Shown in pieces: positions 4,044 to 64,000 of a stretch of DNA of 64,000 bases; position 1 is the first letter of the stretch, and each line of letters begins with the position of its first letter. A model generated the notes under the pieces. That model searched no databases and was not told the DNA's origin. It saw nothing but the letters and a program-made list of their open reading frames with translations. This DNA comes from Odiellus spinosus (taxonomy: Eukaryota; Arthropoda; Arachnida; Opiliones; Phalangiidae). The DNA lies in contig OY987225.1 in the NCBI GenBank assembly GCA_963920705.1, positions 10,388,158-10,452,157 on the forward strand, read 5' to 3'. The translations under genes were made by a program, and so were the position numbers.

Positions 4044-4050
4044 CAATATT

Positions 4051-6275: not shown

Positions 6276-6298
6276 GGAAGAAGAAGAAGAAAGAAAAA
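6276..6298 (+). repeat. GAA-rich 3' tail of the LINE
   Basis: GGAAGAAGAAGAAGAAAG continuing into an A-rich end. CR1/Jockey-type elements often end in a short microsatellite rather than a long poly-A. This marks the probable 3' end of the LINE. Confidence 0.6.
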
Positions 6299-7920: not shown

Positions 7921-9120
7921 AGTTTTTCAAATTGTGTTTTTCGAATCGTGTTTTTCGAATCGTGTTTTTCGAATCGTGTTTTTCGAATCGTGTTTTTCGA
8001 ATCGTGTTTTTCGAATCGTGTTTTTCGAATCGTGTTTTTCGAATCGTGTTTTTCGAATCGTGCTTTTCGAATCGTGCTTTTCGAATCGTGCTTTTCGAAT
8101 CGTGCTTTTCGAATCGTGCTTTTCGAATCGTGTTTTTCGAATCGTGTTTTTCGAATCGTGTTTTTCGAATCGTGTTTTTCGAATCGTGTTTTTCGAATCG
8201 TGTTTTTCGAATCGTGTTTTTCGAATCGTGTTTTTCGAATCGTGTTTTTCGAATCGTGTTTTTCGAATCGTGTTTTTCGAATCGTGTTTTTCGAATCGTG
8301 TTTTTCGAATCGTGTTTTTCGAATCGTGTTTTTCGAATCGTGTTTTTCGAATCGTGTTTTTCGAATCCTGTTTTTCGAATCCTGTTTTTCGAATCCTGTT
8401 TTTCGAATCCTGTTCTTCGAATCGTGTTTTTCGAATCGTGTTTTTCGAATCGTGTTTTTCGAATCGTGTTTTTCGAATCGTGTTTTTCGAATCGTGTTTT
8501 TCGAATCGTGTTTTTCGAATCGTGTTTTTCGAATCGTTTTTTTCGAATCGTGTTTATCGAATCGTGTTTTTCGAATCGTGTTTTTCGAATCGTGTTTTTC
8601 GAATCGTGTTTTTCGAATCGTGTTTTTCGAATCGTGTTTTTCGAATCGTGTTTTTCGAATCGTGTTTTTCGAAAGGTGTTTTTCGAATCGTGTTTTTCGA
8701 AACGTGTTTTTCGAATCGTGTTTTTCGAATCGTGTTTTTCGAATCGTGTTTTTCGAATCGTGTTTTTCGAATCCTGTTCTTCGAATCCTGTTTTTCGAAT
8801 CCTGTTTTTCGAGTCGTGTTTTTCGAATCGTGTTTTTCGAATCGTGTTTTTCGAATCGTGTTTTTCGAATCGTGTTTTTCGAATCGTGTCGAATTTTCGA
8901 ATCGTGTTTTTCGAATCGTGTTTTTCGAATCGTGTTTTTCGAATCGTGTTTTTCGAATCGTGCTTTTCGAATCGTGTTTTTCGAATCGTGTTTTTCGAAT
9001 CGTGTTTTTCGGATCGTGCTTTTCGAATCGTGTTTTTCGAATCGTGCTTTTCGAATCGTGCTTTTCGAATCGTGTTTTTCGAATCGTGTTTTTCGAATCG
9101 TGTTTTAGAATCGTGTTTTT
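7921..9120 (+). repeat. Left-edge satellite domain, near-uniform monomers
   Basis: Mostly canonical 14-mers, with a short run of GTGCTTTTC monomers (about 8060-8125), CCTG-type monomers (about 8365-8415), and a marker cluster at 8671-8830: GAAAGGTG, then GAAACGTG, then CCTGTTCTTCG and two CCTG monomers ending in CGAGTCG. One 18 bp GTGTCGAATTTTCGAATC occurs near 8890 and one 13 bp copy near 9105. Confidence 0.85.
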
Positions 9121-12100
9121 CGAATCGTGTTTTTCGAATCGTGTTTTTCGAATCGTGTCTTTCGAATCGTGTCTTTCGAATCGTGTCTTTCGAATCGTGT
9201 CTTTCGAATCGTGTCTTTCGAATCGTGTCTTTCGAATCCTGTTGTTCAAATCCTGTTTTTCGAATCGTTCTTTTCGAATCGTGTTTTTCGAATCGTGTCG
9301 AATTTTCGAATCGTGTTTTTCTAACCCTGTTCTTCGAATCGTGTTTTTCGAATCGTAGTTTTCGAATCGTGTTTTTCGAATCGTGTTTTTCGAATCGTGT
9401 TTTTCGAATCGTGTTTTTCGAATCGTGTTTTTCGAAACGTGTTTTTCGAATCGTGTTTTTCGAATCGTGTTTTTCGAATCGTGTTTTTCGAATCGTGTTT
9501 TTCGAATCGTGTTTTTCGAATCGTGTTTATCGAATCGTGTTTTTCGAATCGTGTTTTTCGAATCGTGTTTTTCGAATCGTGTTTTTCGAATCGTGTTTTT
9601 CGAATCGTGTTTTTCGAATCGTGTTTTTCGAAAGGTGTTTTTCGAATCGTGTTTTTCGAATCGTGTTTTTCGAATCGTGTTTTTCGAATCGTGTTTTTCG
9701 AATCGTGTTTTTCGAATCGTGTTTTTCGAATCGTGTTTTTCGAATCCTGTTTTTCGAATCCTGTTTTTCGAGTCGTGTTTTTCGAATTGTGTTTTTCGAA
9801 TCATGTTTTTCGAAACGTGTTTTTCGAATCGTGTCGAATTTTCGAATCGTGTTTTTCGAATCGTGTTTTTCGAATCGTGTTTTTCGAATCGTGTTTTTCG
9901 AATCGTGCTTTTCGAATCGTGTTTTTCGAATCGTGTTTTTCGAATCGTGTTTTTGAATCGTGTTTTTCGAATCGTGTTTTTCGAATCGTGTTTTTCGAAT
10001 CGTGTTTTTCGAATCGTGTTTTTCGAATCGTGTTTTTCGAATCGTGTTTTTCGAATCGTGTTTTTCGAATCGTGTTTTTCGAATCGTGTTTTTCGAATCG
10101 TGTTTTTCGAATCGTGTTTTTCGAATCGTGTCTTTCGAATCGTGTCTTTCGAATCGTGTCTTTCGAATCGTGTCTTTCGAATCGTGTTTTTCGAATCGTG
10201 TCGAATTTTCGAATCGTGTCGAATTTTCGAATCGTGTTTTTCGAACCCTGTTCTTCGAATCGTGTTTTTCGAACCCTGTTCTTCGAATCGTGTTTTTCGA
10301 ATCGTGTTTTTCGAATCGTAGTTTTCGAATCGTGTTTTTCGAATCGTGTTTTTCGAATCGTGTTTTTCGAATCTCTTTTTTCGAATCGTGTTTTTCGAAT
10401 CGTGTCGAATTTTCGAATCGTGTTTTTCGAATCGTGTTTTTCGAATCGTGTTTTTCGAATCGTGTTTTTCGAAACGTGTTTTTCGAATCGTGTTTTTCGA
10501 ATCGTGTTTTTCGAATCCTGTTTTTCGAATCCTGTTTTTCGAGTCGTGTTTTTCGAATTGTGTTTTTCGAATCATGTTTTTCGAAACGTGTTTTTCGAAT
10601 CGTGTCGAATTTTCGAATCGTGTTTTTCGAATCGTGTTTTTCGAATCGTGTTTTTCGAATCGTGTTTTTCGAATCGTGCTTTTCGAATCGTGCTTTTCGA
10701 ATCGTGTTTTTCGAATCGTGTTTTTCGAATCGTGTTTTTGAATCGTGTTTTTCGAATCGTGTTTTTCGAATCGTGTTTTTCGAATCGTGTTTTTCGAATC
10801 GTGTTTTTCGAATCGTGTTTTTCGAATCGTGTTTTTCGAATCGTGTTTTTCGAATCGTGTTTTTCGAATCGTGTTTTTCGAATCGTGTCTTTCGAATCGT
10901 GTCTTTCGAATCGTGTCTTTCGAATCGTGTCTTTCGAATCGTGTTTTTCGAATCGTGTCGAATTTTCGAATCGTGTCGAATTTTCGAATCGTGTTTTTCG
11001 AACCCTGTTCTTCGAATCGTGTTTTTCGAACCCTGTTCTTCGAATCGTGTTTTTCGAATCGTGTTTTTCGAATCGTAGTTTTCGAATCGTGTTTTTCGAA
11101 TCGTGTTTTTCGAATCGTGTTTTTCGAATCTCTTTTTTCGAATCGTGTTTTTCGAATCGTGTCGAATTTTCGAATCGTGTTTTTCGAATCGTGTTTTTCG
11201 AATCGTGTTTTTCGAATCGTGTTTTTCGAAACGTGTTTTTCGAATCGTGTTTTTCGAATCGTGTTTTTCGAATCGTGTTTTTCGAATCGTGTTTTTCGAA
11301 TCGTGTCTTTCGAATCGTGTCTTTCGAATCGTGCTTTTCGAATCGTGTTTTTCGAATCGTGCTTTTCGAATCGTGCTTTTCGAATCGTGTTTTTCGAATC
11401 GTGTTTTTCGAATCGTGTTTTTCGAATCGTGTTTTCGAATCGTGTTTTTCGAATCGTGTTTTTCGAATCGTGTCCTTCGAATCGTGTCTTTCGAATCGTG
11501 TCTTTCGAATCGTGTCTTTCGAATCGTGTCTTTCGAATCCTGTTGTTCAAATCCTGTTTTTCGAATCGTTCTTTTCGAATCGTGTTTTTCGAATCGTGTC
11601 GAATTTTCGAATCGTGTTTTTCGAACCCTGTTCTTCGAATCGTGTTTTTCGAATCGTGTTTTTCGAATCGTAGTTTTCGAATCGTGTTTTTCGAATCGTG
11701 TTTTTCGAATCGTGTTTTTCGAATCGTGTTTTTCGAATCGTGTTTTTCAAATCGTGTCGAATTTTCGAATCGTGTTTTTCGAATCGTGTTTTTCGAATCG
11801 TGTTTTTCGAATCGTGTTTTTCGAATCGTGTTTTTCGAAACGTGTTTTTCGAATCGTGTTTTTCGAATCGTGTTTTTCGAATCGTGTTTTTCGAATCGTG
11901 TCTTTCGAATCGTGTCTTTCGAATCGTGTTTTTCGAATCGTTTTTCGAATCGTGTCTTTCGAATCGTGTCTTTCGAATCCTGTCTTTCGAATCCTGTTTT
12001 TCAAATCCTGTTTTTCGAATCGTTCTTTTCGAATCGTGTTTTTCGAATCGTGTTTTTCGAATCGTGTCGAATTTTCGAATCGTGTTTTTCGAACCCTGTT

Positions 12101-12600
12101 CTTCGAATCGTGTTTTTCGAATCGTGTTTTTCGAATCGTAGTTTTCGAATCGTGTTTTTCGAATCGTGTTTTTCGAATCGTGTTTTTCGAATCGTGTTTT
12201 TCGAATCGTGTTTTTCGAATCGTGTTTTTCGAATCGTGTTTTTCGAATCGTGTTTTTCGAATCGTGTTTTTCGAATCGTGTTTTTCGAATCGTCTTTCGA
12301 ATCGTGTCTTTCGAATCGTGTCTTTCGAATCGTGTCTTTCGAATCGTGTTTTTCGAATCGTGTTTTTCGAATCGTGTTTTTCGAATCGTGTTTTTCGAAT
12401 CGTGTTTTTCGAATCGTGTTTTTCGAATCGTGTTTTTCGAATCGTGTTTTTCGAATCGTGTTTTTCGAATCGTGTTTTTCGAATCGTGTTTTTCGAATCG
12501 TGTTTTTCGAATCGTGTTTTTCGAATCGTGTTTTTCGAATCGTGTTTTTCGAATCGTGTTTTTCGAATCGTGTCGAATTTTCGAATCGTGTTTTTCGAAT
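9120..12600 (+). repeat. Satellite domain with 757-785 bp higher-order duplication
   Basis: Monomers of type GTGTCTTTC and GTAGTTTTC and the marker CGAACCCTGTTCTTCG are common here. Markers repeat at fixed offsets: CGAGTCGTG followed by CGAATTGTG and AATCATG recurs after 771 bp (9771 and 10542). The pair of GTGTCGAATTTTCGAATC units (10201 and 10958), CCCTGTTC (10246 and 11003), GTAGTTTTC (10318 and 11075) and AATCTCTTTTTTCG (10370 and 11127) all recur after 757 bp. A 13 bp GTGTTTTTGAATC recurs after 785 bp. The offsets differ by single monomers. Confidence 0.85.
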
Positions 12601-14420
12601 CGTGTTTTTCGAATCGTGTTTTTCGAATCGTGTTTTTCGAATCGTGTTTTTCGAATCGTGTTTTTCGAATCGTGTTTTTCGAATCGTGTTTTTCGAATCG
12701 AGTTTTTCGAATCGTGTTTTACGAATCGTGTTTTTCGAATCGTGTTTTTCGAATCGTGTTTTTCGGATCGTGTTTTTCGAATCGTGTTTTTCGAATCGTG
12801 TTTTTCGAATCGTGTTTTTCGAATCTTGTTTTTCGAATCGTGCTTTTCGAATCGTGTTTTTCGAATCGTGTTTTTCGAATCGTGTTTCTCGAATCGTGTT
12901 TTTCGAATCGTGCTTTTCGAATCGTGCTTTTCGAATCGTGCTTTTCGAATCGTGTTTTTCGAATCGTGTTTTTCGAATCGTGTTTTTCGAATCGTGTTTT
13001 TCGAATCGTGCTTTTCGAATCGTGCTTTTCGAGTCGTGCTTTTCGAATCGTGCTTTTTGAGTCGTGCTTTTCGAATCGTGCTTTTCGAATCGTGCTTTTC
13101 GAATCGTGCTTTTCGAATCGTTCTTTTCGAATCGTGTTTTTCGAATCGTGTTTTTCGAATCGTGTTTTTCGAATCGTGATTTTCGAATCGTGTTTTTCGA
13201 ATCGTGTTTTTCGAATCGTGTTTTTCGAATCGTTTTTTTCGAATCGTTTTTTTCGAATCGTGTTTTTCGAATCGTGTTTTTCGAATCGTGTTTTTCGAAT
13301 CGTGTTTTTCGAATCGAGTTTTTCGAATCGCGTTTTACGAATCGTGTTTTTCGAATCGTGCTTTTCGAATCGTGTTTTTCGAATCGTGTTTTTCGAAACG
13401 TGTTTTTCGAATCGTGCTTTTCGAATCGTGCTTTTCGAATCGTGCTTTTCGAATCGTGTTTTTCGAATCGTGTTTTTCGAATCGTGTTTTTCGAATCTTG
13501 TTTTTCGAATCGTGCTTTTCGAATCGTGTTTTTCGAATCGTGTTTTTCGAAACGTGTTTTTCGAATCGTGTTTTTCGAATCGTGTTTTTCGAATCGTGTT
13601 TTTCGAATCGTGTTTTTCGAATCGTGTCGAATTTTCGAATCGTGTTTTTCGAATCGTGTTTTTCGAATCGTGTTTTTCGAATCGTGTTTTTCGAATCGTG
13701 TTTTTCGAATCGTGCTTTTCGAATCGTGCTTTTCGAATCGTGCTTTTCGAATCGTGCTTTTCGAATCGTGCTTTTCGAATCGTGCTTTTCGAATCGTGCT
13801 TTTCGAATCGTGCTTTTCGAATCGTGTTTTTCGAATCGTGTTTTTCGAATCGTGTTTTTCGAATCGTGGTTTTCGAATCGTGTTTTTCGAATCGTGTTTT
13901 TCGAATCGTGTTTTTCGAATCGTGTTTTTCGAATCGTGTTTTTCGAATCGTGCTTTTCGAATCGTTCTTTTCGAATCGTTCTTTTCGAATCGTGTTTTTC
14001 GAATCACTTTTTTCGAATCGTGTTTTTCGAATCGTGTTTTTCGAATCGTGTTTTTCGAATCGTGTTTTTTCGAATCGTGTTTTTCGAATCGTGTCGAATT
14101 CTCGAATCGTGTTTTTCGAATCGTGTTTTTCGAATCGTGTTTTTCGAATCGTGTTTTTCGAATCGTGCTTTTCGAATCGTGCTTTTCGAATCGTTCTTTT
14201 CGAATCGTGTTTTTCGAATCGTGTTTTTCGAATCGTGTTTTTCGAATCGTGTTTTTCGAATCGTGTTTTTCGAATCGTTTTTTTCGAATCGTGTTTTTCG
14301 AATCGTGTTTTTCGAATCGTGTTTTTCGAATCGTGTTTTTCGAATCGTGTTTTTCGAATCGTGTTTTTCGAATCGTGTTTTTCGAATCGTGTTTTTCGAA
14401 TCGAGTTTTTCGAATCGTGT
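12600..14420 (+). repeat. Satellite domain with C-type monomers and GAGTTTTTC / GTTTTACG markers
   Basis: Introduces runs of GTGCTTTTCGAATC, the alternation CGAATCGTGC / CGAGTCGTGC, and the markers CGAGTTTTTCG followed by GTTTTACG (12700, and 13316 with GCGTTTTACG; spacing 616 = 44 x 14). It also has CGGATCG, AATCTTG, GTTTCTCG, AATCACTTTTTTCG (about 13994), a 15 bp copy and GTCGAATTCTCG (about 14093). The 12.70-13.35 kb part is an extra, diverged copy of the 956 bp unit described for 16.27-19.2 kb. Confidence 0.8.
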
Positions 14421-16270
14421 TTTTGAATCGTGTTTTTCGAATCGTGTTTTTCGAATCGTGTTTTTCGAATCGTGTTTTTCGAATCGTGTTTTTCGAATCG
14501 TGTTTTTCGAATCGTGTTTTTCGAATCGTGTTTTTCGAATCGTGTTTTTCGAATCGTGTTTTTCGAATCGTGTCTTTCGAATCGTGTCTTTCGAATCGTG
14601 TCTTTCGAATCGTGTCTTTCGAATCGTGTCGAATTTTCGAATCGTGTCGAATTTTCGAATCGTGTTTTTCGAATCGTGTTTTTCGAATCGTGTTCTTCGA
14701 ATCGTGTTTTTCGAACCCTGTTCTTCGAATCGTGTTTTTCGAATCGTGTTTTTCGAATCGTAGTTTTCGAATCGTGTTTTTCGAATCGTGTTTTTCGAAT
14801 CGTGTTTTTCGAATCTCTTTTTTCGAATCGTGTTTTTCGAATCGTGTCGAATTTTCGAATCGTGTTTTTCGAATCGTGTTTTTCGAATCGTGTTTTTCGA
14901 AACGTGTTTTTCGAATCGTGTTTTTCGAATCGTGTTTTTCGAATCGTGTTTTTCGAATCGTGTTTTTCGAATCGTGTCTTTCGAATCGTGTCTTTCGAAT
15001 CGTGCTTTTCGAATCGTGTTTTTCGAATCGTGCTTTTCGAATCGTGCTTTTCGAATCGTGTTTTTCGAATCGTGTTTTTCGAATCGTGTTTTCGAATCGT
15101 GTTTTTCGAATCGTGTTTTTCGAATCGTGTCTTTCGAATCGTGTCTTTCGAATCGTGTCTTTCGAATCGTGTCTTTCGAATCGTGTCTTTCGAATCCTGT
15201 TGTTCAAATCCTGTTTTTCGAATCGTTCTTTTCGAATCGTGTTTTTCGAATCGTGTCGAATTTTCGAATCGTGTTTTTCGAACCCTGTTCTTCGAATCGT
15301 GTTTTTCGAATCGTGTTTTTCGAATCGTAGTTTTCGAATCGTGTTTTTCGAATCGTGTTTTTCGAATCGTGTTTTTCGAATCGTGTTTTTCGAATCGTGT
15401 TTTTTGAATCGTGTCGAATTTTCGAATCGTGTTTTTCGAATCGTGTTTTTCGAATCGTGTTTTTCGAATCGTGTTTTTCGAATCGTGTTTTTCGAAACGT
15501 GTTTTTCGAATCGTGTTTTTCGAATCGTGTTTTTCGAATCGTGTTTTTCGAATCGTGTCTTTCGAATCGTGTCTTTCGAATCGTGTTTTTCGAATCGTTT
15601 TTCGAATCGTGTCTTTCGAATCGTGTCTTTCGAATCGTGTCTTTCGAATCCTGTTTTTCAAATCCTGTTTTTCGAATCGTTCTTTTCGAATCGTGTTTTT
15701 CGAATCGTGTTTTTCGAATCGTGTCGAATTTTCGAATCGTGTTTTTCGAACCCTGTTCTTCGAATCGTGTTTTTCGAATCGTGTTTTTCGAATCGTAGTT
15801 TTCGAATCGTGTTTTTCTAATCGTGTTTTTCGAATCGTGTTTTTCGAATCGTGTTTTTCGAATCGTGTTTTTCGAATCGTGTTTTTCGAATCGTGTTTTT
15901 CGAATCGTGTTTTTCGAATCGTGTTTTTCGAATCGTGTTTTTCGAATCGTCTTTCGAATCGTGTTTTTCGAATCGTCTTTCGAATCGTGTCTTTCGAATC
16001 GTGTCTTTCGAATCGTGTCTTTCGAATCGTGTTTTTCGAATCGTGTTTTTCGAATCGTGTTTTTCGAATCGTGTTTTTCGAATCGTGTTTTTCGAATCGT
16101 GTTTTTCGAATCGTGTTTTTCGAATCGTGTTTTTCGAATCGTGTTTTTCGAATCGTGTTTTTCGAATCGTGTTTTTCGAATCGTGTTTTTCGAATCGTGT
16201 TTTTCGAATCGTGTTTTTCGAATCGTGTTTTTCGAATCGTGTTTTTCGAATCGTGTTTTTCGAATCGTGT
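14420..16270 (+). repeat. Segmental copy of the 10.74-12.6 kb satellite block
   Basis: Marker order is the same as at 10.74-12.6 kb: 13 bp GTGTTTTTGAATC, two 18-mers, CCCTG, GTAG, AATCTCTTTTTTCG, 13 bp GTGTTTTCGAATC, CCTGTTGTTCAAATCC, 12 bp GTTTTTCGAATC, CCTGTTTTTCAAATCC. Offsets: GTAG 11075 to 14760 and AATCTC 11127 to 14812 (both 3685), CCTGTTG 11539 to 15196 and CCTGTTTTTCAAATCC 11993 to 15650 (both 3657). The offset changes by whole monomers only. Confidence 0.85.
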
Positions 16271-19200
16271 CGAATTTTCGAATCGTGTTTTTCGAATCGT
16301 GTTTTTCGAATCGTGTTTTTCGAATCGTGTTTTTCGAATCGTGTTTTTCGAATCGTGTTTTTCGAATCGTGTTTTTCGAATCGTGTTTTTCGAATCGTGT
16401 TTTTCGAATCGAGTTTTTCGAATCGTGTTTTACGAATCGTGTTTTTCGAATCGTGTTTTTCGAATCGTGTTTTTCGGATCGTGTTTTTCGAATCGTGTTT
16501 TTCGAATCGTGTTTTTCGAATCGTGTTTTTCGAATCTTGTTTTTCGAATCGTGCTTTTCGAATCGTGCTTTTCGAATCGTGTTTTTCGAATCGTGTTTTT
16601 CGAATCGTGTTTCTCGAATCGTGTTTTTCGAATCGTGCTTTTCGAATCGTGCTTTTCGAATCGTGCTTTTCGAATCGTGCTTTTCGAATCGTGTTTTTCG
16701 AATCGTGTTTTTCGAATCGTGTTTTTCGAATCGTGTTTTTCGAATCGTGCTTTTCGAATCGTGCTTTTCGAGTCGTGCTTTTCGAATCGTGCTTTTCGAG
16801 TCGTGCTTTTCGAATCGTGCTTTTCGAATCGTGCTTTTCGAATCGTGCTTTTCGAATCGTTCTTTTCGAATCGTGTTTTTCGAATCGTGTTTTTCGAATC
16901 GTGTTTTTCGAATCGTGTTTTTCGAATCGTGTTTTTCGAATCGTGTTTTTCGAATCGTTTTTTTCGAATCGTGTTTTTCGAATCGTGTTTTTCGAATCGT
17001 GTTTTTCGAATCGTGTTTTTCGAATCGAGTTTTTCGAATCGCGTTTTACGAATCGTGTTTTTCGAATCGTGCTTTTCGAATCGTGTTTTTCGAATCGTGT
17101 TTTTCGAAACGTGTTTTTCGAATCGTGCTTTTCGAATCGTGTTTTTCGAATCGTGTTTTTCGAATCGTGTTTTTCGAATCGTGTTTTTCGAATCGTGTTT
17201 TTCGAATCGTGTTTTTCGAATCGTGTTTTTCGAATCGTGTCGAATTTTCGAATCGTGTTTTTCGAATCGTGTTTTTCGAATCGTGTTTTTCGAATCGTGT
17301 TTTTCGAATCGTGTTTTTCGAATCGTGTTTTTCGAATCGTGTTTTTCGAATCGTGTTTTTCGAATCGAGTTTTTCGAATCGTGTTTTACGAATCGTGTTT
17401 TTCGAATCGTGTTTTTCGAATCGTGTTTTTCGGATCGTGTTTTTCGAATCGTGTTTTTCGAATCGTGTTTTTCGAATCGTGTTTTTCGAATCTTGTTTTT
17501 CGAATCGTGCTTTTCGAATCGTGCTTTTCGAATCGTGTTTTTCGAATCGTGTTTTTCGAATCGTGTTTCTCGAATCGTGTTTTTCGAATCGTGCTTTTCG
17601 AATCGTGCTTTTCGAATCGTGCTTTTCGAATCGTGCTTTTCGAATCGTGTTTTTCGAATCGTGTTTTTCGAATCGTGTTTTTCGAATCGTGTTTTTCGAA
17701 TCGTGCTTTTCGAATCGTGCTTTTCGAGTCGTGCTTTTCGAATCGTGCTTTTCGAGTCGTGCTTTTCGAATCGTGCTTTTCGAATCGTGCTTTTCGAATC
17801 GTGCTTTTCGAATCGTTCTTTTCGAATCGTGTTTTTCGAATCGTGTTTTTCGAATCGTGTTTTTCGAATCGTGTTTTTCGAATCGTGTTTTTCGAATCGT
17901 GTTTTTCGAATCGTTTTTTTCGAATCGTGTTTTTCGAATCGTGTTTTTCGAATCGTGTTTTTCGAATCGTGTTTTTCGAATCGAGTTTTTCGAATCGCGT
18001 TTTACGAATCGTGTTTTTCGAATCGTGCTTTTCGAATCGTGTTTTTCGAATCGTGTTTTTCGAAACGTGTTTTTCGAATCGTGCTTTTCGAATCGTGTTT
18101 TTCGAATCGTGTTTTTCGAATCGTGTTTTTCGAATCGTGTTTTTCGAATCGTGTTTTTCGAATCGTGTTTTTCGAATCGTGTTTTTCGAATCGTGTTTTT
18201 CGAATCGTGTCGAATTTTCGAATCGTGTTTTTCGAATCGTGTTTTTCGAATCGTGTTTTTCGAATCGTGTTTTTCGAATCGTGTTTTTCGAATCGTGTTT
18301 TTCGAATCGTGTTTTTCGAATCGAGTTTTTCGAATCGTGTTTTACGAATCGTGTTTTTCGAATCGTGTTTTTCGAATCGTGTTTTTCGGATCGTGTTTTT
18401 CGAATCGTGTTTTTCGAATCGTGTTTTTCGAATCGTGTTTTTCGAATCTTGTTTTTCGAATCGTGCTTTTCGAATCGTGCTTTTCGAATCGTGTTTTTCG
18501 AATCGTGTTTTTCGAATCGTGTTTCTCGAATCGTGTTTTTCGAATCGTGCTTTTCGAATCGTGCTTTTCGAATCGTGCTTTTCGAATCGTGTTTTTCGAA
18601 TCGTGTTTTTCGAATCGTGTTTTTCGAAACGTGTTTTTCGAATCGTGCTTTTCGAATCGTGCTTTTCGAGTCGTGCTTTTCGAATCGTGCTTTTCGAGTC
18701 GTGCTTTTCGAATCGTGCTTTTCGAATCGTGCTTTTCGAATCGTTCTTTTCGAATCGTGTTTTTCGAATCGTGTTTTTCGAATCGTGTTTTTCGAATCGT
18801 GTTTTTCGAATCGTGTTTTTCGAATCGTGTTTTTCGAATCGTGTTTTTCGAATCGTGTTTTTCGAATCGTTTTTTTCGAATCGTGTTTTTCGAATCGTGT
18901 TTTTCGAATCGTGTTTTTCGAATCGTGTTTTTCGAATCGAGTTTTTCGAATCGCGTTTTACGAATCGTGTTTTTCGAATCGTGCTTTTCGAATCGTGTTT
19001 TTCGAATCGTGTTTTTCGAAACGTGTTTTTCGAATCGTGCTTTTCGAATCGTGCTTTTCGAATCGTGCTTTTCGAATCGTGTTTTTCGAATCGTGTTTTT
19101 CGAATCGTGTTTTTCGAATCTTGTTTTTCGAATCGTGCTTTTCGAATCGTGTTTTTCGAATCGTGTTTTTCGAAACGTGTTTTTCGAATCGGGTTTTTCG
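16270..19200 (+). repeat. 956 bp higher-order repeat, three tandem copies
   Basis: Five different marker variants recur at exactly 956 bp: CGAGTTTTTC at 16411, 17367, 18323; the same followed by GCGTTTTACG at 17027, 17983, 18939; CGGATCG at 16475, 17431, 18387; TCTTG at 16535, 17491, 18447; TTCTCG at 16611 and 17567. The length equals 67 monomers of 14 bp plus one 18 bp GTGTCGAATTTTCGAATC (938 + 18). Copies differ by point variants, such as a GAAACGTG near 18.62 kb only in the third, and by single-monomer losses between the 18-mer and the GAG marker (140, 126, 112 bp). Confidence 0.9.
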
Positions 19201-20300
19201 AATCGTGTTTTTCGAATCGTGTTTTTCGAATCGTGTCGAATTTTCGAATCGTGATTTTCGAATCGTGTTTTTCGAATCGTGTTTTTCGAATCGTGTTTTT
19301 CGAATCGTGTTTTTCGAATCGTGCTTTTCGAATCGTGCTTTTCGAATCGTGCTTTTCGAATCGTGCTTTTCGAATCGTGCTTTTCGAATCGTGCTTTTCG
19401 AATCGTGTTTTTCGAATCGTGTTTTTCGAATCGTGTTTTTCGAATCGTGGTTTTCGAATCGTGTTTTTCGAATCGTGTTTTTCGAATCGTGTTTTTCGAA
19501 TCGTGTTTTTCGAATCGTGTTTTTCGAATCGTGTTTTTCGAATCGTGCTTTTCGAATCGTTCTTTTCGAATCGTTCTTTTCGAATCGTGTTTTTCGAATC
19601 ACTTTTTTCGAATCGTGTTTTTCGAATCGTGTTTTTCGAATCGTGTTTTTTCGAATCGTGTTTTTCGAATCGTGTCGAATTCTCGAATCGTGTTTTTCGA
19701 ATCGTGTTTTTCGAATCGTGTTTTTCGAATCGTGTTTTTCGAATCGTGCTTTTCGAATCGTGCTTTTCGAATCGTTCTTTTCGAATCGTGTTTTTCGAAT
19801 CGTGTTTTTCGAATCGTGTTTTTCGAATCGTGTTTTTCGAATCGTGTTTTTCGAATCGTTTTTTTCGAATCGTGTTTTTCGAATCGTGTTTTTCGAATCG
19901 TGTTTTTCGAATCGTGTTTTTCGAATCGTGTTTTTCGAATCGTGTTTTTCGAATCGTGTTTTTCGAATCGAGTTTTTCGAATCGTGTTTTTGAATCGTGT
20001 TTTTCGAATCGTGTTTTTCGAATCGTGTTTTTCGAATCGTGTTTTTCGAATCGTGTTTTTCGAATCGTGTTTTTCGAATCGTGTTTTTCGAATCGTGTTT
20101 TTCGAATCGTGTTTTTCGAATCGTGTTTTTCGAATCGTGTTTTTCGAATCGTGTCTTTCGAATCGTGTCTTTCGAATCGTGTCTTTCGAATCGTGTCTTT
20201 CGAATCGTGTTTTTCGAATCGTGTTTTTCGAATCGTGTTTTTCGAATCGTGTTTTTCGAATCGTGCTTTTCGAATCGTGCTTTTCGAGTCGTGCTTTTCG
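19200..20300 (+). repeat. Segmental copy of the 13.6-14.6 kb satellite block
   Basis: The markers GTGGTTTTCG, AATCACTTTTTTCG, a 15 bp monomer, GTCGAATTCTCG and the 13 bp GTGTTTTTGAATC appear in the same order as at 13.86-14.43 kb. Offsets are 5581 bp for GTGTCGAATTC (14091 and 19672) and 5567 bp for the 13-mer, again differing by one monomer. Confidence 0.8.
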
Positions 20301-29300: not shown

Positions 29301-29600
29301 GTCTTTCGAATCGTGTCTTTCGAATCGTGTCTTTCGAATCCTGTTTTTCAAATCCTGTTTTTCGAATCGTTCTTTTCGAATCGTGTTTTTCGAATCGTGT
29401 TTTTCGAATCGTGTCGAATTTTCGAATCGTGTTTTTCGAGCCCTGTTCTTCGAATCGTGTTTTTCGAATCGTGTTTTTCGAATCGTAGTTTTCGAATCGT
29501 GTTTTTCGAATCGTGTTTTTCGAATCGTGTTTTTCGAATCGTGTTTTTCGAATCGTGTTTTTCGAATCGTGTTTTTCGAATCGTGTTTTTCGAATCGTGT
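20300..29600 (+). repeat. Mosaic satellite domain built from shuffled copies of the 9-16 kb modules
   Basis: The module GTGTCTTTC run, CCTGTTGTTCAAATCC, 18-mer, CCCTGTTCTTC, GTAG recurs many times. CCTGTTG lies at 21046, 22980, 24432, 25870 and 28912 (spacings 1934, 1452, 1438, 3042). CCTGTTTTTCAAATCC lies at 23476, 25010, 26310, 26690 and 29340. Between them are blocks with C-type monomers, GATTCGTGC variants, AATCACTTTTTTCG (near 22705, 24333, 25626, 27070), 15-mers and GTCGAATTCTCG. Shortened GTAGTTTCG copies (13 bp) and 12-mers are also specific to this part. The irregular spacing suggests repeated unequal exchange among a few parental modules. Confidence 0.8.
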
Positions 29601-42900: not shown

Positions 42901-43120
42901 TTCGAATCGTGTTTTTCGAATCGTGTTTGTTTTTCGAATCGTGTTTTTCGAATCGTGTTTTTCGAATCGTGTTTTTCGAAACGTGTTTGTTTTTCGAATC
43001 GTGTTTGTTTTTCGAATCGTGTTTTTCGAATCGTGTTTTTCGAATCGTGTTTGTTTTTCGAATCGTGTTTGTTTTTCGAATCGTGTTTTTCGAATCTTGT
43101 TTTTCGAATCGTGTTTTTCG
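39930..43120 (+). repeat. Satellite domain with the 18 bp GTGTTTGTTTTTCGAATC monomer, copy 1
   Basis: From 39931 a second type of 18-mer, with GTTT duplicated, appears in clusters (about 39931-40260, 41125-41530, 41968-42360, 42927-43080), often every four or five monomers and then twice in close succession. GTGTTTGTCGAATC (14 bp) and the 13 bp GTGTTTTTGAATC also occur near 41250. This form is absent left of 39.9 kb. Confidence 0.9.
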
Positions 43121-55300: not shown

Positions 55301-56000
55301 TCGAATCGTGCTTTCCGAATCGTGCTTTTCGAATCGTGCTTTTCGAATCGTGCTTTTCGAATCGTGCTTTTCGAATCGTGCTTTTCGAATCGTGCTTTTC
55401 GAATCGTGTTTTTCGAATCGTGTTGTTCGAATCGTGTTCTTCGAATCGTGTTTTTCGAATCGTGTTTTTCGAATCGTGTTTTTCGAATCGTGTTTTTCGG
55501 ATCGTGTTTTTCGAATCGTGTTTTTCGAGTCGTGTTTTTCGAATCGTCTTTTTCGAATCTTGTTTTTCGAATCGTGCTTTTCGAATCGTGTTTTTCGAAT
55601 CGTGTTTTTCGAATCGTGTTTTTCGAATCGTGTTTTTCGGATCGTGTTTTTCGAATCGTGTTTTTCGAGTCGTGTTTTTCGAATCGTCTTTTTCGAATCT
55701 TGTTTTTCGAATCGTGCTTTTCGAATCGTGTTTTTCGAATCGTGTTTTTCGAATCGTGTTTTTCGAATCGTGCTTTTCGAATCGTGCTTTTCGAATCGTG
55801 CTTTTCGAATCATGGTTTTCGAGTCGTGCTTTTCGAATCGCCCTTTTCGAATCGTGTTTTTCGAATCGTGTTTTTCGAATCGTGTCGAATTTTCGAATCG
55901 TGTTTTTCTAATCGTGTTTTTCGAATCGTGTTTTTCGAATCGTGTTTTTCGAATCGTGTTTTTCGAATCGTGTTTTTCGAATCGTGTTTTTCGGATCGTG
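52340..56000 (+). repeat. Satellite domain with a 926-940 bp HOR, three copies
   Basis: TTGAGTCG (52215, 53155, 54729) and the rare GTGCTTTCCGAATC (52831, 53757, 55313) mark three copies. The first two are 926-940 bp apart and the third is displaced by 1556-1574 bp. Each copy has a C-type run with two CGAGTCG monomers, GTGTTGTTCG, GTGTTCTTCG, CGGATCG, CGAGTCG, GTCTTTTTC and AATCTTG. CATGGTTTTCG and CGCCCTTTTCG recur at 54.27 and 55.81 kb (1542 bp). Confidence 0.82.
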
Positions 56001-58310
56001 TTTTTCGAATCGTGTTTTACGAATCGATTTTTACGAATCATGTTTTTCGAATCGTGTTTTTCGAATCGTGTTTTTCGGATCGTGTTTTTCGAATCGTGTT
56101 TTTCGAATCGTGTTTTACGAATCGTGTTTTACGAATCGTGTTTTTCGAATCGTGTTTTTTGAATCGTGTTTTTCGAATCGTGTTTTTCGAATCGTGTTTT
56201 TCGAATCGTGTTTGTCGAATCGTGTTTTTCGAATCGTGTTCTTCGAATCCTGTTTCTCGAATCGTGTTTTTCGAATCGTGTTTTTCGAATCGTGTTTTTC
56301 GAATCGTGTTTTTCGAATCTTGTTTTTCGAATCGTGTTTTTCGAATCGTGTTTTTCTAATCGTGTTTTTCGAATCGTCTTTTTCGAATCGTGTTTTACGA
56401 ATCGTCTTTTTCGAATCGTGTTTTACGAATCGTGTTTTTCGAATCGTGTTTTTCGAATCGTGTTTTTCGAATCGTGTTTTTCGAATCTTGTTTTTCGAAT
56501 CGTGCTTTTCGAATCGTGTTTTTCGAATCGTGTTTTTCGAATCGTGTTTTTCGAATCGTGTTTTTCGAATCGTGCTTTTCGAATCGTGCTTTTCGAATCG
56601 TGCTTTTCGAATCGTGTTTTTCGAATCGTGTTTTTCGAATCGTGTTTTTCGAATCGTGTTTTTCGAATCGTGCTTTTCGAATCGTGCTTTTTGAGTCGTG
56701 CTTTTCGAATCGTGCTTTTCGAGTCGTGCTTTTCGAATCGTGTTTTTCGAATCGTGCTTTTCGAATCGTGCTTTTCGAATCGTGCTTTTCGAATCGTGCT
56801 TTTCGAATCGTGCTTTTCGAATCGTGCTTTTCGAATCGTGCTTTTCGAATCGTGCTTTTCGAATCGTGTTTTTCGAATCGTGTTTTTCGAATCGTGTTTT
56901 TCGAATCGTGTCGAGTTTTCGAATCGTGTTTTTCGAATCGTGTTTTTCGAATCTTGTTTTTCGAATCGTGTTCTTCGAATCGTGTTCTTCGAATCGTGTT
57001 TTTCGAATCGTGTTTTTCGAATCGTGTTTTTCGAATCGTGTTTTTCGAATCGTGTTTTTCGAATCGTGTTTTTCGAATCGTGTTTTTCGAATCGTGTTTT
57101 TCGAATCGTGTTTTTCGAATCGTGTTTTTCGAATCGTGTTTTTCGAATCGTGTTTTTCGAATCGTGTTTTTCGAATCGTGTTTTTCGAATCGTGTTTTTC
57201 GAATCGTGTTTTTCGAATCGTGTTTTTCGAATCGTGTTTTTCGAATCGTGTTTTTCGCATCGTGTTTTTCGAATCGTGTTTTTCGAATCGTGTTTTTCGG
57301 ATCGTGTTTTACGAATCGTGTTTTACGAATCGTGTTTTACGAATCGTGTTTTACGAATCGTGTTTTTCGAATCGTGTTTTTCGAATCGTGTTTTTCGAAT
57401 CGTGTTTTTCGAATCGTGTTTTTCGAATCGTGTCGAATTTTCGAATCGTGTCGAATTTTCGAATCGTGTCGAATTTTCGAATCGTGTTTTTCGAATCGTG
57501 TTTTTCGAATCGTGTTTTTCGAATCGTGTTTTTCGAATCGTGTTTTTCGAATCGTGTTTTTCGAATCGTGTTTTTCGAATCGTGCTTTTCGAATCGTGCT
57601 TTTCGAATCGTGTTTTTCGAATCGTGTTTTTCGAATCGTGCTTTTCGAATCGTGCTTTTCGAATCGTGCTTTTCGAATCGTGCTTTTCGAATCGTGCTTT
57701 TCGAATCGTGTTTTTCGAATCGTGTTTTTCGAATCGTGTTTTTCGAATCGTGTTTTTCGAATCGTGTTTTTCGAATCGTGTTTTTCGAATCGTGTTTTTC
57801 GAATCGTGTTTTTCGAATCGTGTTTTTCGAATCGTGTTTTTCGAATCGTTTTTCGAATCGTGTCGAATTTTCGAGTCGTGTTTTTCGAATCGTGTCGAAT
57901 TTTCGAATCGTGTTTTTCGAATCGTGTCGAATTTTCGAATCGTGTTTTTCGAATCGTGTTTTTCGAATCGTGTTTTTCGAATCGTGCTTTTCGAATCGTG
58001 CTTTTCGAATCGTGCTTTTCGAATCGTGGTTTTCGAGTCGTGCTTTTCGAATCGTGTTTTTCAAATCGTGTTTGTCGAATCGTGTCGAATTTTCGAATCG
58101 TGTTTTTCGAATCGTGTTTTTCGGATCGTGTTTTTCGAATCGTGTTTTACGAATCGTGTTTTACGAATCGTGTTTTTCGAATCGTGTTTTTCGGATCGTG
58201 TTTTTCGAATCGTGTTTTTCGAATCGTGTTTTTCGAATCGTGTTTTACGAATCGTGTTTTTTGAATCCTGTTTTTCGAATCGTGTTTTTCGAATCGTGTT
58301 TTTCGAATCG
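56000..58310 (+). repeat. Satellite domain with GTTTTACG-rich monomers and a long pure run
   Basis: It begins with ATCGATTTTTACGAATCATG, a variant found only near 56.03, 59.03 and 60.24 kb. It includes a C-type run (56.66-56.87 kb), GTGTCGAGTTTTCGAATC (56.91 kb), a long run of about 17 canonical monomers (57.0-57.25 kb), CGCATC, four adjacent GTGTTTTACG and three adjacent 18-mers (57.43 kb). This repeats the 49.5-50.05 kb block. A 12-mer and several 18-mers lie at 57.84-57.95 kb. Confidence 0.78.
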
Positions 58311-58360
58311 TGTTTTTCGTCTCCTGTTTTTCGTCTCCTGTTTTTCGTATCCTGTTTTTC
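58310..58360 (+). repeat. Private cluster of strongly variant monomers (GTCTCCTG type)
   Basis: Three consecutive monomers read TTTTTCGTCTCCTG, TTTTTCGTCTCCTG and TTTTTCGTATCCTG, replacing the usual CGAATCGTG. I saw this form nowhere else in the array. Confidence 0.85.
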
Positions 58361-61300
58361 GGATCGTGTTTTTCGAATCGTGCTTTTCGAATCGTGCTTT
58401 TCGAATCGTGCTTTTCGAATCGTGCTTTTCGAATCGTGTTTTTCGAATCGTGTTTTTCGAATCGTGTTTTTCGAATCGTGTTTTTCGAATCGTGTCGAAT
58501 TTTCGAATCGTGTTTTTCGAATCGTGTTTTTCGAATCGTGTTTTTCGAATCGTGCTTTTCGAATCGTTCTTTTCGAATCGTGTTTTTCGAATCGTGTTTT
58601 TCGAATCGTGTTTTTCGAATCGTGTTTTTCGAATCGTGTTTTTCGAATCGTGTTTTTCGAATCGTGTTTTTCGAATCGTGTTTTTCGAATCGTGTTTTTC
58701 GAATCGTGTTTTTCGAATCGTGTTTTTCGAATCGTGTTTTTCGAATCGTGTTTTTCGAATCGTGTCGAATTTTCGAATCGTGTTTTTCGAATCGTGTCGA
58801 ATTTTCGAATCGTGTTTTTCGAATCGTGTCGAATTTTCGAATCGCGTTTTTCAAATCGTGTTTTTCGAATCGTGTTTTTCGAATCGTGTCGAATTTTCGA
58901 ATCGTGTTTTTCTAATCGGGTTTTTCGAATCGTGTTTTTCGAATCGTGTTTTTCGAATCGTGTTTTTCGAATCGTGTTTTTCGAATCGTGTTTTTCGGAT
59001 CGGGTTTTTCGAATCGTGTTTTACGAATCGATTTTTACGAATCATGTTTTTCGAATCGTGTTTTTCGAATCGTGTTTTTCGGATCGTGTTTTTCGAATCG
59101 TGTTTTTCGAATCGTGTTTTACGAATCGTGTTTTACGAATCGTGTTTTTCGAATCGTGTTTTTTGAATCGTGTTTTTCGAATCGTGTTCTTCGAATCCTG
59201 TTTTTCGAATCGTGTTTTTAGAATCGTGTTTTTCGAATCGTGTTTTTCGAATCGTGTTTTTCGAATCTTGTTTTTCGAATCGTGTTTTTCGAATCGTGTT
59301 TTTCTAATCGTGTTTTTCGAATCGTCTTTTTCGAATCGTGTTTTACGAATCGTGTTCTTCGAATCGTGTTTTTCGAATCGTGTTTTACGAATCGTGTTTT
59401 TCGAATCGTGTTTTTCGAATCGTGTTTTTCGAATCGTGTTTTTCGAATCTTGTCTTTCGAATCGTGCTTTTCGAATCGTGTTTTTCGAATCGTGTTTTTC
59501 GAATCGTGTTTTTCGAATCGTGTTTTTCGAATCGTGCTTTTCGAATCTTGCTTTTCGAATCGTGCTTTTCGAATCGTGTTTTTCGAATCGTGTTTTTCGA
59601 ATCGTGCTTTTCGAATCGTGCTTTTCGAATCGTGCTTTTCGAATCGTAGTTTTCGAGTCGTGCTTTTCGAATCGTGTTTTTCAAATCGTGTTTGTCGAAT
59701 CGTGTCGAATTTTCGAATCGTGTTTTTCGAATCGTGTTTTTCGGATCGTGTTTTTCGAATCGTGTTTTACGAATCGTGTTTTACGAATCGTGTTTTTCGA
59801 ATCGTGTTTTTCGGATCGTGTTTTTCGAATCGTGTTTTTCGAATCGTGTTTTTCGAATCGTGTTTTACGAATCGTGTTTTTCGAATCGTGTTTTTCGAAT
59901 CGTGTTTTTCGAATCGTGTTTTTCGAATCGTGTTTTTCGAATCGTGTTTTTCGAATCGTGTTTTTCGAATCGTGTCGAATTTTCGAATCGTGTTTTTCGA
60001 ATCGTGTCGAATTTTCGAATCGTGTTTTTCGAATCGTGTCGAATTTTCGAATCGCGTTTTTCAAATCGTGTTTTTCGAATCGTGTTTTTCGAATCGTGTC
60101 GAATTTTCGAATCGTGTTTTTCTAATCGTGTTTTTCGAATCGTGTTTTTCGAATCGTGTTTTTCGAATCGTGTTTTTCGAATCGTGTTTTTCGAATCGTG
60201 TTTTTCGGATCGTGTTTTTCGAATCGTGTTTTACGAATCGATTTTTACGAATCATGTTTTTCGAATCGTGTTTTTCGAATCGTGTTTTTTGGATCGTGTT
60301 TTTCGAATCGTGTTTTTCGAATCGTGTTTTACGAATCGTGTTTTACGAATCGTGTTTTTCGAATCGTGTTTTACGAATCGTGTTTTTCGAATCGTGTTTT
60401 TCGAATCGTGTTTTTCGAATCGTGTCTTTCGAATCGTGTTTTTCGAATCGTGTTTGTCGAATCGTGTTTTTCGAATCGTGTTCTTCGAATCCTGTTTTTC
60501 GAATCGTGTTTTTCGAATCGTGTTTTTCGAATCGTGTTTTTCGAATCGTGTTTTTCGAATCTTGTTTTTCGAATCGTGTTTTTCGAATCGTGTTTTTCTA
60601 ATCGTGTTTTTCGAATCGTCTTTTTCGAATCGTGTTTTACGAATCGTGTTCTTCGAATCGTGTTTTTCGAATCGTGTTTTACGAATCGTGTTTTTCGAAT
60701 CGTGTTTTTCGAATCGTGTTTTTCGAATCGTGTTTTTCGAATCTTGTTTTTCGAATCGTGCTTTTCGAATCGTGTTTTTCTAATCGTGTTTTTCGAATCG
60801 TGTTTTTCGAATCGTGTTTTTCGAATCGTGCTTTTCGAATCGTGCTTTTCGAATCGTGCTTTTCGAATCGTGTTTTTCGAATCGTGTTTTTCGAATCGTG
60901 TTTTTCGAATCGTGTTTTTCGAATCGTGCTTTTCGAATCGTGCTTTTCGAGTCGTGCTTTTCGAATCGTGCTTTTCGAGTCGGCTTTTCGAATCGTGTTT
61001 TTCGAATCGTGCTTTTCGAATCGTGCTTTTCGAATCGTGCTTTTCGAATCATGCTTTTCGAATCGTGCTTTTCGAATCGTGCTTTTCGAATCGTGCTTTT
61101 CGAATCGTGCTTTTCGAATCGTGTTTTTCGAATCGTGTTTTTCGAATCGTGTTTTTCGAATCGTGTCGAGTTTTCGAATCGTGTTTTTCGAATCGTGTTT
61201 TTCGAATCTTGTTTTTCGAATCGTGTTCTTCGAATCGTGTTCTTCGAATCGTGTTTTTCGAATCGTGTTTTTCGAATCGTGTTTTTCGAATCGTGTTTTT

Positions 61301-61400
61301 CGAATCGTGTTTTTCGAATCGTGTTTTTCGAATCGTGTTTTTCGAATCGTGTTTTTCGAATCGTGTTTTTCGAATCGTGTTTTTCGCATCGTGTTTTTCG
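58360..61400 (+). repeat. Satellite domain with repeated 18-mer, CTAATCG and ATCGATTTTTACG modules
   Basis: The sequence of markers 18-mer, CGCGTTTTTCAAATC, 18-mer, CTAATCG, CGGATCG, GTTTTACG, ATCGATTTTTACG, GTTTTACG run, GTTCTTCG, AATCCTG appears at 58.75-59.2 kb and again at 59.97-60.5 kb (about 1.2 kb apart). The module GAGTCGTGC, GTGTTTTTCAAATC, GTTTGTCG, 18-mer, CGGATCG recurs with CAAATC at 58062 and 59682 (1620 bp). A C-type run with a 13 bp GGCTTTTCG copy lies near 60.98 kb. Confidence 0.78.
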
Positions 61401-64000
61401 CATCGTGTTTTTCGAATCGTGTCGAATTTTCGAATCGTGTTTTACGAATCGTGTTTTTCGAATCGTGTCGAATTTTCGAATCGTGTTTTTCGAATCGTGT
61501 CGAATTTTCGGATCGTGTTTTTCGAATCGTGTTTTTCGAATCGTGTCGAATTTTCGAATCGTGTTTTTCGAATCGTGTTTTTCGAATCGTGTTTTTCGAA
61601 TCGTGTTTTTCGAATCGTGCTTTTCGAATCGTGCTTTTCGAGTCGTGCTTTTCGAATCGTGCTTTTCGAGTCGTGCTTTTCGAATCGTGTTTTTCGAATC
61701 GTGCTTTTCGAATCGTGCTTTTCGAATCGTGCTTTTCGAATCGTGCTTTTCGAATCGTGCTTTTCGAATCGTGCTTTTCGAATCGTGCTTTTCGAATCGT
61801 GCTTTTCGAATCGTGCTTTTCGAATCGTGTTTTTCGAATCGTGTTGTTCGAATCGTGTTCTTCTAATCGTGTTTTTCGAATCGTGTTTTTCGAATCGTGT
61901 TTTTCGAATCGTGTTTTTCGGATCGTGTTTTTCGAATCGTGTTTTTCGAATCGTGTTTTTCGAATCGTGTTTTTCGAATCGTGTCGAATTTTCGAATCGT
62001 GTTTTTCGAATCGTGTCGAATTTTCGAATCGTGTCGAATTTTCGAATCGCGTTTTTCAAATCGTGTTTTTCGAATCGTGTTTTTCGAATCGTGTCGAATT
62101 TTCGAATCGTGTCGAATTTTCGAATCGTGTTTTTCTAATCGTGTTTTTCGAATCGTGTTTTTCGAATCGTGTTTTTCGAATCGTGTTTTTCGAATCGTGT
62201 TTTTCGAATCGTGTTTTTCGAATCGTGTTTTTCGGATCGTGTTTTTCGAATCGTGTTTTTTGGATCGTGTTTTTCGAATCGTGTTTTTCGAATCGTGTTT
62301 TACGAATCGTGTTTTTCGAATCGTGTTTTACGAATCGTGTTTTTCGAATCGTGTTTTTCGAATCGTGTTTTTCGAATCGTGTTTTTCGAATCGTGTTTGT
62401 CGAATCGTGTTTTTCGAATCGTGTTCTTCGAATCCTGTTTTTCGAATCGTGTTTTTCGAATCGTGTTTTTCGAATCGTGTTTTTCGAATCGTGTTTTTCT
62501 AATCGTGTTTTTCGAATCGTCTTTTTCGAATCGTGTTTTACGAATCGTGTTCTTCGAATCGTGTTTTTCGAATCGTGTTTTACGAATCGTGTTTTTCGAA
62601 TCGTGTTTTTCGAATCGTGTTTTTCGAATCTTGTTTTTCGAATCGTGCTTTTCGAATCGTGTTTTTCTAATCGTGTTTTTCGAATCGTGTTTTTCGAATC
62701 GTGTTTTTCGAATCGTGCTTTTCGAATCGTGCTTTTCGAATTGTGCTTTTCGAATCGTGTTTTTCGAATCGTGCTTTTCGAATCGTGTTTTTCGAATCGT
62801 GTTCTTCGAATCGTGTTTTTCGAATCGTGTTTTTCGAATCGTGCTTTTCGAGTCGTGCTTTTCGAATCGTGCTTTTCGAGTCGTGCTTTTCGAATCGTGT
62901 TTTTCGAATCGTGCTTTTCGAATCGTGCTTTTCGAATCGTGTTTTTCGCATCGTGTTTTTCGCATCGTGTTTTTCGAATCGTGTCGAATTTTCGAATCGT
63001 GTTTTTCGAATCGTGTTTTTCGAATCGTGTCGAATTTTCGAATCGTGTTTTTCGAATCGTGTCGAATTTTCGGATCGTGTTTTTCGAATCGTGTTTTTCG
63101 AATCGTGTCGAATTTTCGAATCGTGTTTTTCGAATCGTGTTTTTCGAATCGTGTTTTTCGAATCGTGTTTTTCGAATCGTGTTTTTCGAATCGTGCTTTT
63201 CGAATCGTGCTTTTCGAGTCGTGCTTTTCGAATCGTGCTTTTCGAGTCGTGCTTTTCGAGTCGTGCTTTTCGAATCGTGTTTTTCGAATCGTGCTTTTCG
63301 AATCGTGCTTTTCGAATCGTGCTTTTCGAATCGTGCTTTTCGAATCGTGCTTTTCGAATCGTGCTTTTCGAATCGTGCTTTTCGAATCGTGTTTTTCGAA
63401 TCGTGTTGTTCGAATCGTGTTCTTCTAATCGTGTTTTTCGAATCGTGTTTTTCGAATCGTGTTTTTCGAATCGTGTTTTTCGGATCGTGTTTTTCGAATC
63501 GTGTTTTTCGAATCGTGTTTTTCGAATCGTGTTTTTCGAATCGTGTCGAATTTTCGAATCGTGTTTTTCGAATCGTGTCGAATTTTCGAATCGTGTTTTT
63601 CGAATCGTGTCGAATTTTCGAATCGCGTTTTTCAAATCGTGTTTTTCGAATCGTGTTTTTCGAATCGTGTCGAATTTTCGAATCGTGTCGAATTTTCGAA
63701 TCGTGTTTTTCTAATCGTGTTTTTCGAATCGTGTTTTTCGAATCGTGTTTTTCGAATCGTGTTTTTCGAATCGTGTTTTTCGAATCGTGTTTTTCGAATC
63801 GTGTTTTTCGGATCGTGTTTTTCGAATCGTGTTTTTTGGATCGTGTTTTTCGAATCGTGTTTTTCGAATCGTGTTTTACGAATCGTGTTTTTCGAATCGT
63901 GTTTTACGAATCGTGTTTTTCGAATCGTGTTTTTCGAATCGTGTTTTTCGAATCGTGTTTTTCGAATCGTGTTTGTCGAATCGTGTTTTTCGAATCGTGT
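61400..64000 (+). repeat. Satellite domain with a 1562-1576 bp HOR, running off the right edge
   Basis: GTTGTTCG (61844 and 63406) and TGGATCG (62261 and 63837) recur after 1562 and 1576 bp. The intervening order of C-type run, CTAATCG, CGGATCG, 18-mers, CGCGTTTTTCAAATC, double 18-mer and CTAATCG is the same. The array is still regular at position 64000. Confidence 0.82.

Follow-up and report, generated by a model that had tools for sequence, protein, structure and literature searches.

A 14-bp satellite array on chromosome 1 of the harvestman Odiellus spinosus and its probable origin in the internal repeat of a small Helentron-type transposon

How does a repeat of only 14 bp come to fill about 152 kb of a chromosome? 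The question is raised by the window analyzed here, a stretch of 64,000 bp from chromosome 1 of the harvestman Odiellus spinosus (C1:10388158-10452157), which from position 7922 onwards consists of such a satellite array. On sequence grounds, the array probably expanded out of the tandem repeat inside a small rolling-circle transposon, a non-autonomous element of the Helentron type (HINE). Directly seen are an end module of this element, called the head in the following, at the left edge of the array, the combination of head and 14-mer dispersed over the genome with arrays from two units up, and defined ends of the element. All genome-wide counts cover 443,074,358 bases in 286 contigs.

The array and the module at its left edge

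The features of the array and of its left edge are listed below in window positions.

7922 to 64000, continuing to about C1 10,547,755, + strand: 14-bp satellite array with the consensus GTGTTTTTCGAATC (Tandem Repeats Finder, unit alignment, sampling)
7922 to 7935, + strand: first unit GTTTTTCAAATTGT, CA type like the dispersed copies (read from the sequence)
7764 to 7921, + strand: head module of the dispersed HINE-like element, 158 bp, putative seed of the array (genome matches, alignment with 11 other copies)

Tandem Repeats Finder reported a single array from 7922 to 64000 with a period of 14, 3945.1 copies, 93% matches and 2% indels. A wrap-around alignment divided it into 3,946 units, 112 of them distinct, with a base identity of 96.8%. 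The consensus GTGTTTTTCGAATC is matched exactly by 2,262 of the 3,946 units (57%). The commonest odd unit length is 18 bp (178/3,946 units, 136 exactly GTGTCGAATTTTCGAATC). All 14 rotations of the unit occur on the + strand of the window and none on the - strand, which agrees with the roughly 4,000 head-to-tail copies in one orientation described in a first-pass annotation. The length given there, at least 56 kb, also holds. The window part is unbroken, and the array was found again at C1 10.452-10.462, 10.480-10.490, 10.520-10.530, 10.535, 10.540 and 10.545 Mb, with other DNA at 10.550 and 10.560 Mb. Its right end lies near C1 10,547,755. The total of about 152 kb, or roughly 10,000 units, is derived from these sampled stretches and not from base-by-base reading. 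Near the right end (about 641-2060 of locus L152, C1 ~10.5456-10.5471 Mb) the array contains a foreign insert of about 1.4 kb, whose ends, judged by eye, resemble a miniature inverted-repeat transposable element (GGAGTCTATTCTCTAA ... TTAGAGAATTGCCTCC). Freedom from insertions and foreign sequence, as annotated, is therefore true of the window and untrue of the whole array.

The higher-order structure noted earlier is real, but it is irregular. Exact blocks that recur elsewhere in the window array hold 51% of the units, when a shared block is defined as at least 20 units, of which 6 or more are variants belonging to 4 or more kinds; in three of three shuffles of the unit order no shared block was found. 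Sharing is strongest mainly at offsets of 53-138 units and in other cases at several hundred, without a fixed period. The TTCGAA palindrome of the unit is by itself unremarkable, as 1,970 of 20,000 shuffles of the 14-mer contain some 6-base palindrome. A coding function of the array was rejected. All six frames are open in the window unit, but this is likewise the case in 2,029 of 20,000 shuffles, and four of nine unit types (from 7.0, 10.7 and twice 10.9 Mb) contain TCA, a stop on the opposite strand. Comparison by eye with the consensus of the CENP-B box and of the tRNA B box gave no match, or one mismatch that was judged to be chance.

The DNA left of the array had been described as mobile-element debris. 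Such debris is present in the flank, but it is not unrelated to the array: the final 158 bp of the flank form one end of a repeat-carrying element. A search with window 7690-7935 gave 1,042 candidates, of which the best 40 were scored, located on 18 contigs. The other 39 scored matches start at window 7753-7764 and end at 7932 or 7935, inside the first 14-mer. A 33-mer of the consensus head has 399 exact copies in the genome, against 0 in the reversed control. The head in the window deviates from this 33-mer and so is not counted among them. The first 100 of the 399 places listed (C1-C4) are spread along the chromosomes, with a few head-to-tail clusters among them.

In total, 26 copies were read, namely 20 fetched from the 40 scored and those of the window, L016, L038, L154, L155 and L182. 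The outer edge of the head is fixed, with A at -1 in 20/20 fetched copies, and the DNA before it is unlike among these copies, except for the duplicated locus L165/L172. The 14-mer follows the head in 26/26 copies, directly in 25 and after about 90 bp in L016. In 11 of the 20 fetched copies the array closes, after about 2, 2, 5, 8, 10, 12, 12, 13, 20, 30 and 30 units (with a possibly incomplete last unit), and in the other nine it runs off the stretch. All 11 closed arrays are followed by a conserved far module, itself partly tandem, which reads CTTGGCTAC... in eight and ...CTGACATACTC... in three copies. The units of the fetched dispersed copies are of the CA type (TTTTTCAAATC), the copy on C45 excepted. 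A third unit type, TTTGTCAAATCAGG, was seen in the element copy of L038 (C1 10.30 Mb). The large arrays of the window, of C1 1.88 Mb and of C17 3.92 Mb open with the head and are each preceded by unlike DNA. Three arrays of the CG type were seen with a head (window, C17 3.92 Mb, C45), and in each the one or two units closest to the head are of the CA type; the rest of the window array is mainly CG type, unlike its first unit. As a source of the head, a tRNA was rejected (none in 7 loci), as was a known RNA (two Rfam matches in 5 loci, far below the cut-off). The fold of the head has a z of -1.15.

The ends and the candidate class of the element

Two further features of the head bear on the class of the element.

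7789 to 7799, + strand: subterminal inverted repeat TAGCTAGACCC, with the complement GGGTCTAGCTA at the far end of complete copies (copies compared)
7770 to 7783, + strand: short palindrome ATGGTCAAGACCAT near the terminus (read from the sequence)

Four copies were read to the other end, with lengths of about 1.26, 1.40, 1.43 and 1.59 kb. The far end of all four is a hairpin, TAGCTAGACCC-N10-GGGTCTAGCTA, perfect in the copy at C17 9.89 Mb and imperfect in the other three, and a run of A lies beyond it in 3/3 copies read further. The element ends with AACAAG...TAGCTAGACCC on one side and with GGGTCTAGCTAAAA on the other. GGGTCTAGCTA is absent from the window. The repeat TAGCTAGACCC is located 25 nt from the terminus in 26/26 copies. 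The terminal inverted match measures 11, 12 and 12 bp in three complete copies, a length reached in 0 of 2,000 shuffles each. A palindrome ATGG..CCAT occurs in 24/26 copies, mostly with a 4-bp stem, and a longer-stem form with ACCAT in three. No target duplication was seen by eye in 3/3 copies.

The HINE/DINE-1 plan, as described in the parts of the literature available to us, comprises a subterminal repeat near one end with an inverted repeat beside it, a tandem middle, a second repeat with a palindrome at the other end, T-rich edges and no duplication (PMC4067079, PMC7492417). Read in reverse, the harvestman element likely follows this layout, which makes a non-autonomous Helentron (HINE/DINE-1) the candidate class. 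Its subterminal inverted repeats of 11, 12 and 12 bp fall within the 11-15 bp of HINEs, an inverted repeat follows the first subterminal repeat after N10, the spacing in DINE-1 being 3-22 bp, and tandem repeats stand between the end modules. The subterminal repeats are located, in this direction, about 4 nt (if the A/T run belongs to the element) and 25 nt from the ends. For the mite HINE families, the accessible text gives 2-4 nt for one repeat and about 38-60 nt for the other (PMC4067079). A foldback transposon was rejected, as complete copies end in a different module that is inverted over 11-12 bp alone. Close inverted pairs of heads did not stand out by eye among the first 100 of the 399 places listed.

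Origin and growth of the array

If the array did arise from a HINE, a copy of the element would have inserted at C1 10.396 Mb, and slippage, unequal exchange or aberrant rolling-circle copying would then have extended the repeat inside it. Later growth may have proceeded by duplication of blocks of about 0.7-8 kb, and the far module may have been lost at the right side. Blockwise growth is suggested by four variant positions that recur at an offset of 8,167 bp in C1 10.475-10.485 Mb. The CA-type units by the head of CG-type arrays make the array appear as if it had changed while growing away from the head. Element-derived satellites have precedents in the literature, as far as the excerpts available to us show (PMC4067079, PMC7492417, PMC12628747). 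In the oyster satellite Cg170, a tandem array linked to the element on one side is described, in the text available, as an intermediate form that arises by recombination or aberrant rolling-circle replication (PMC12628747); the window array likewise keeps the element on one side alone.

Several observations speak against this origin or against the assigned class. The far module is missing at the right side of the window array, and no head opens the 4.8 Mb array on its left. As the query extended over 14 bases of the repeat and scoring covered only the best 40 of 1,042 candidates, the copies may include too few heads that lack repeats. The distance of the second subterminal repeat from its terminus is 25 nt instead of the 38-60 nt of the mite HINEs, and the palindrome is weak in most copies, which argues against an exact HINE fit. 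The missing head of the 4.8 Mb array would also suit a satellite that existed first, a piece of which was captured and spread by the element. Rolling-circle elements are reported, in the portion of the source available, to capture host sequence including tandem repeats (PMC12628747). We consider this order of events rather unlikely, as the three large arrays of the window, C1 1.88 Mb and C17 3.92 Mb open with the head, and the unit adjoining it in CG-type arrays is the element's usual CA type.

An assembly artefact that inflates the array is very improbable. The assembly was built from PacBio reads with a reported QV (quality value) of 60.6, according to the accessible part of the genome note (PMC11503004), the units diverge by about 3%, and blocks recur at many different offsets. 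In favor of an artefact, runs of N lie nearby (L017, L068), and the edge of the 4.8 Mb array is found again in inverted form at 5.08 Mb, with 99.96% identity over 2,323 bp; an error from haplotypes or fold-back could account for this copy. The edge and flank concerned (C1:4,955,600-4,957,900; L015 7601-9923) recur inverted in L151 (C1:5,083,000-5,086,000), and this pair is either an inverted duplication of young age or an artefact of assembly. The window array and the 4.8 Mb array have a flank in common, which is the right flank of the former (97.3% over 1,589 bp). Directly left of the 4.8 Mb array, L009 (C1:4,795,000-4,804,999) contains open frames that by eye are LINE-like (long interspersed nuclear element) and Polinton-like.

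A satellite origin from HINE-type elements is already known; what the present case adds to the probable Helentron-type origin is the 14-bp unit, the length of the array and the full series in one genome. The birth of satellites is mostly inferred after the evidence has decayed, and here seed, small, longer and giant arrays coexist in one assembly. As the giant array has kept its seed, the gain of units, the duplication of blocks, the loss of the far module and the change of unit type can be counted.

The satellite family, its genome and comparison with known systems

A degenerate two-unit pattern, which covers several subfamilies, matched 59,991 times on the forward and 72,885 times on the reverse strand (132,876 in total), with 0 matches in the reversed control; the window accounts for 2,551 of the 132,876. 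At 14 bases per match the family comprises at least 1.86 Mb (0.4%). As 12 array loci contain one match per 22-45 bases (some of these loci include non-array bases), the total may perhaps be extrapolated to 2-5 Mb. The exact dimer of the window type was found 8,975 + 3,644 times in the genome and 0 times in viral and prokaryote contig collections. Arrays on chromosome 1, met through sampling or match listing, are located at 1.88, 4.80-4.96, 5.08-5.11, 7.00, 10.40-10.55, 10.68-10.73, 10.78-11.20 and 11.25 Mb. They occur in both orientations and with differing units (GTG-, GGG-, CTG-, ATG- and ACG-, with a CG or CA core). None of the 20 probes placed at 0.5-4 and 12.5-34 Mb of C1 was positive, though the 1.88 Mb array lies there. 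Runs of 14 perfect units of the window type occur at 63 places, all in the window's array, at C17 3.92 Mb (13) or on C84 (1). Eight perfect GGG-units were found at 396 places, the first 100 listed of which lie on C1, C16, C17, C64 and C84. A perfect 14-mer array closes C13 and opens C18. The repeat is thus of high copy number and not confined to one locus, in line with the first-pass annotation, and it has the long, abundant, non-coding tandem arrays of satellite DNA (~152 kb, 132,876 dimers, stops in 4/9 unit types). The monomer was not recognized as a named satellite in that annotation, and none of the 28 papers found in a literature search with six of its 11-mers has a title on satellites. 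Among the titles listed in two further literature searches (12 of 374 and 8 of 8), none is on a harvestman satellite. The 14-mer family supplies probes for fluorescence in situ hybridization in an arachnid order with variable karyotypes.

The earlier comparison with satellites of insects does not fit the host, which is a harvestman. COX1 on contig C286 agrees: its identity is 98% with Oligolophus tienmushanensis (Phalangiidae) and 95-96% with further entries from Phalangioidea. Several nuclear COX1-like pieces at C17 1.1-4.4 Mb are probably mitochondrial insertions. The genome note, in its available text, gives an assembly of 443.70 Mb in 310 scaffolds and does not contain the words 'satellite', 'repeat' or 'telomer' (PMC11503004). 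Some of these scaffolds thus seem to be missing from the 286 contigs analyzed here. The remaining left flank of the window forms one feature.

1 to 7763, strand not assigned: degraded mobile-element DNA (Pfam matches to two pieces)

These are a gag zinc-knuckle piece (681-989, - strand, zf-CCHC, E 3.9e-5) and a LINE-type reverse transcriptase piece (4860-5258, + strand, RVT_1, E 1.2e-16); the other open reading frame pieces of the flank tested against Pfam gave nothing above the cut-off. The reverse transcriptase piece matched one protein of a protein collection, which was uninformative. Two inverted repeats, each about 90% alike, at window 6869-7024 and 2651-2703/4208-4260 are perhaps remains of small DNA transposons.

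Other short satellites are present. A 23-bp satellite (GTATAGATTCACAAATTTCCCAA-like) opens the chromosome-scale contigs C8, C12, C15 and C16 (L075, L079, L082, L083) and is a rival centromere candidate. A 22-bp satellite, which has CG and CA forms like the 14-mer, forms arrays at C1 5.30 Mb (L032), C1 7.05 Mb (L054) and the left end of C17 (L084). At L021 (~4548-4690), AAGATGGTCAAGCCCATAG is found as in the head, followed by other sequence and about two 22-bp units. This one example raises the possibility that related elements gave rise to more than one satellite. The 14- and 22-bp repeats have TTTTTCAAAT in common, and 7 of 2,000 shuffled pairs reach 10 bases, a weak likeness because the pair was chosen afterwards among 12. 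A 20-bp tandem repeat, TGATTCCGAATCGATTCGCG, lies at L040 (C1 10.65 Mb). We tentatively suggest, as a possibility that is not favored, that one rolling-circle family with a common terminal stretch of about 20 bp and differing repeats (14, 22 bp), each expanded to large satellites, keeps seeding heterochromatin. If true, the satellite domain of chromosome 1 would be built from element-borne repeats, in stages from 2 to about 10,000 units.

Concerning function, the end product of this growth is most likely only a putative structural, pericentromere-like heterochromatin, and the position of the array is compatible with pericentromeric heterochromatin. That the array is the functional centromere of chromosome 1, or part of it, would be compatible with the element origin, and we regard it as doubtful. 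The arrays at 4.8-11.3 Mb of a 35.4 Mb chromosome, both ends of which look (sub)telomeric, would fit a centromere, as would the heteropycnotic blocks at centromeres of Phalangiidae (PMC5904373) and the 5-10 bp repeats underlying Drosophila CENP-A (PMC5844345), both as given in the accessible parts of these papers; however, another array of chromosome 1 is located at 1.88 Mb. The 14-mer is also not the sole candidate, because C8, C12, C15 and C16 begin with the 23-bp and C17 with the 22-bp satellite. There is next to no probability that the array serves as a telomeric repeat, or as a repeat of chromosome ends like those of some sciarid flies, even though 14-bp terminal repeats (T-14) are reported for Rhynchosciara in the available text (PMC7694509) and 14-mer arrays stand at the end of C13 and the start of C18. 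The window is located 10.4 Mb inside C1, and of the 18 contigs C1-C18, 12 have TTAGG at the right end and two at the left; telomeric identity was rejected on these grounds. The ends of C1 (L025, L026) share inverted subtelomeric repeats, e.g., 95.7% over 1,525 bp, which suggests that the left end is subtelomeric despite its lack of a long TTAGG array.

The following comparisons refer to the parts of the cited papers available to us. The putative HINE of the harvestman resembles DINE-1/HINE in its 11-15 bp subterminal repeats, adjacent inverted repeat, internal tandem repeats and hairpin and, tentatively, in T-rich edges and the lack of a visible duplication; it differs in its 14-bp central unit and in the distance of 25 nt instead of 38-60 nt in the mite (PMC4067079). 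Compared with the oyster Cg_HINE and the Cg170/HindIII satellite (PMC7492417, PMC12628747), the harvestman unit is unrelated, much shorter and from another host, and in contrast to Cg170/HindIII its seed module is still attached to the array of ~152 kb. The foldback transposon Tetris of Drosophila virilis likewise turned transposon-internal repeats into a satellite (PMC4079207), whereas the harvestman element has no inverted copy of the whole head at its other end, as judged from the first 100 of 399 places listed. The T-14, M-16 and M-22 repeats of Rhynchosciara chromosome ends are likewise very short arthropod units, similar by description and not by sequence; they are terminal, whereas the harvestman array is interior on a chromosome set with TTAGG ends (PMC7694509).

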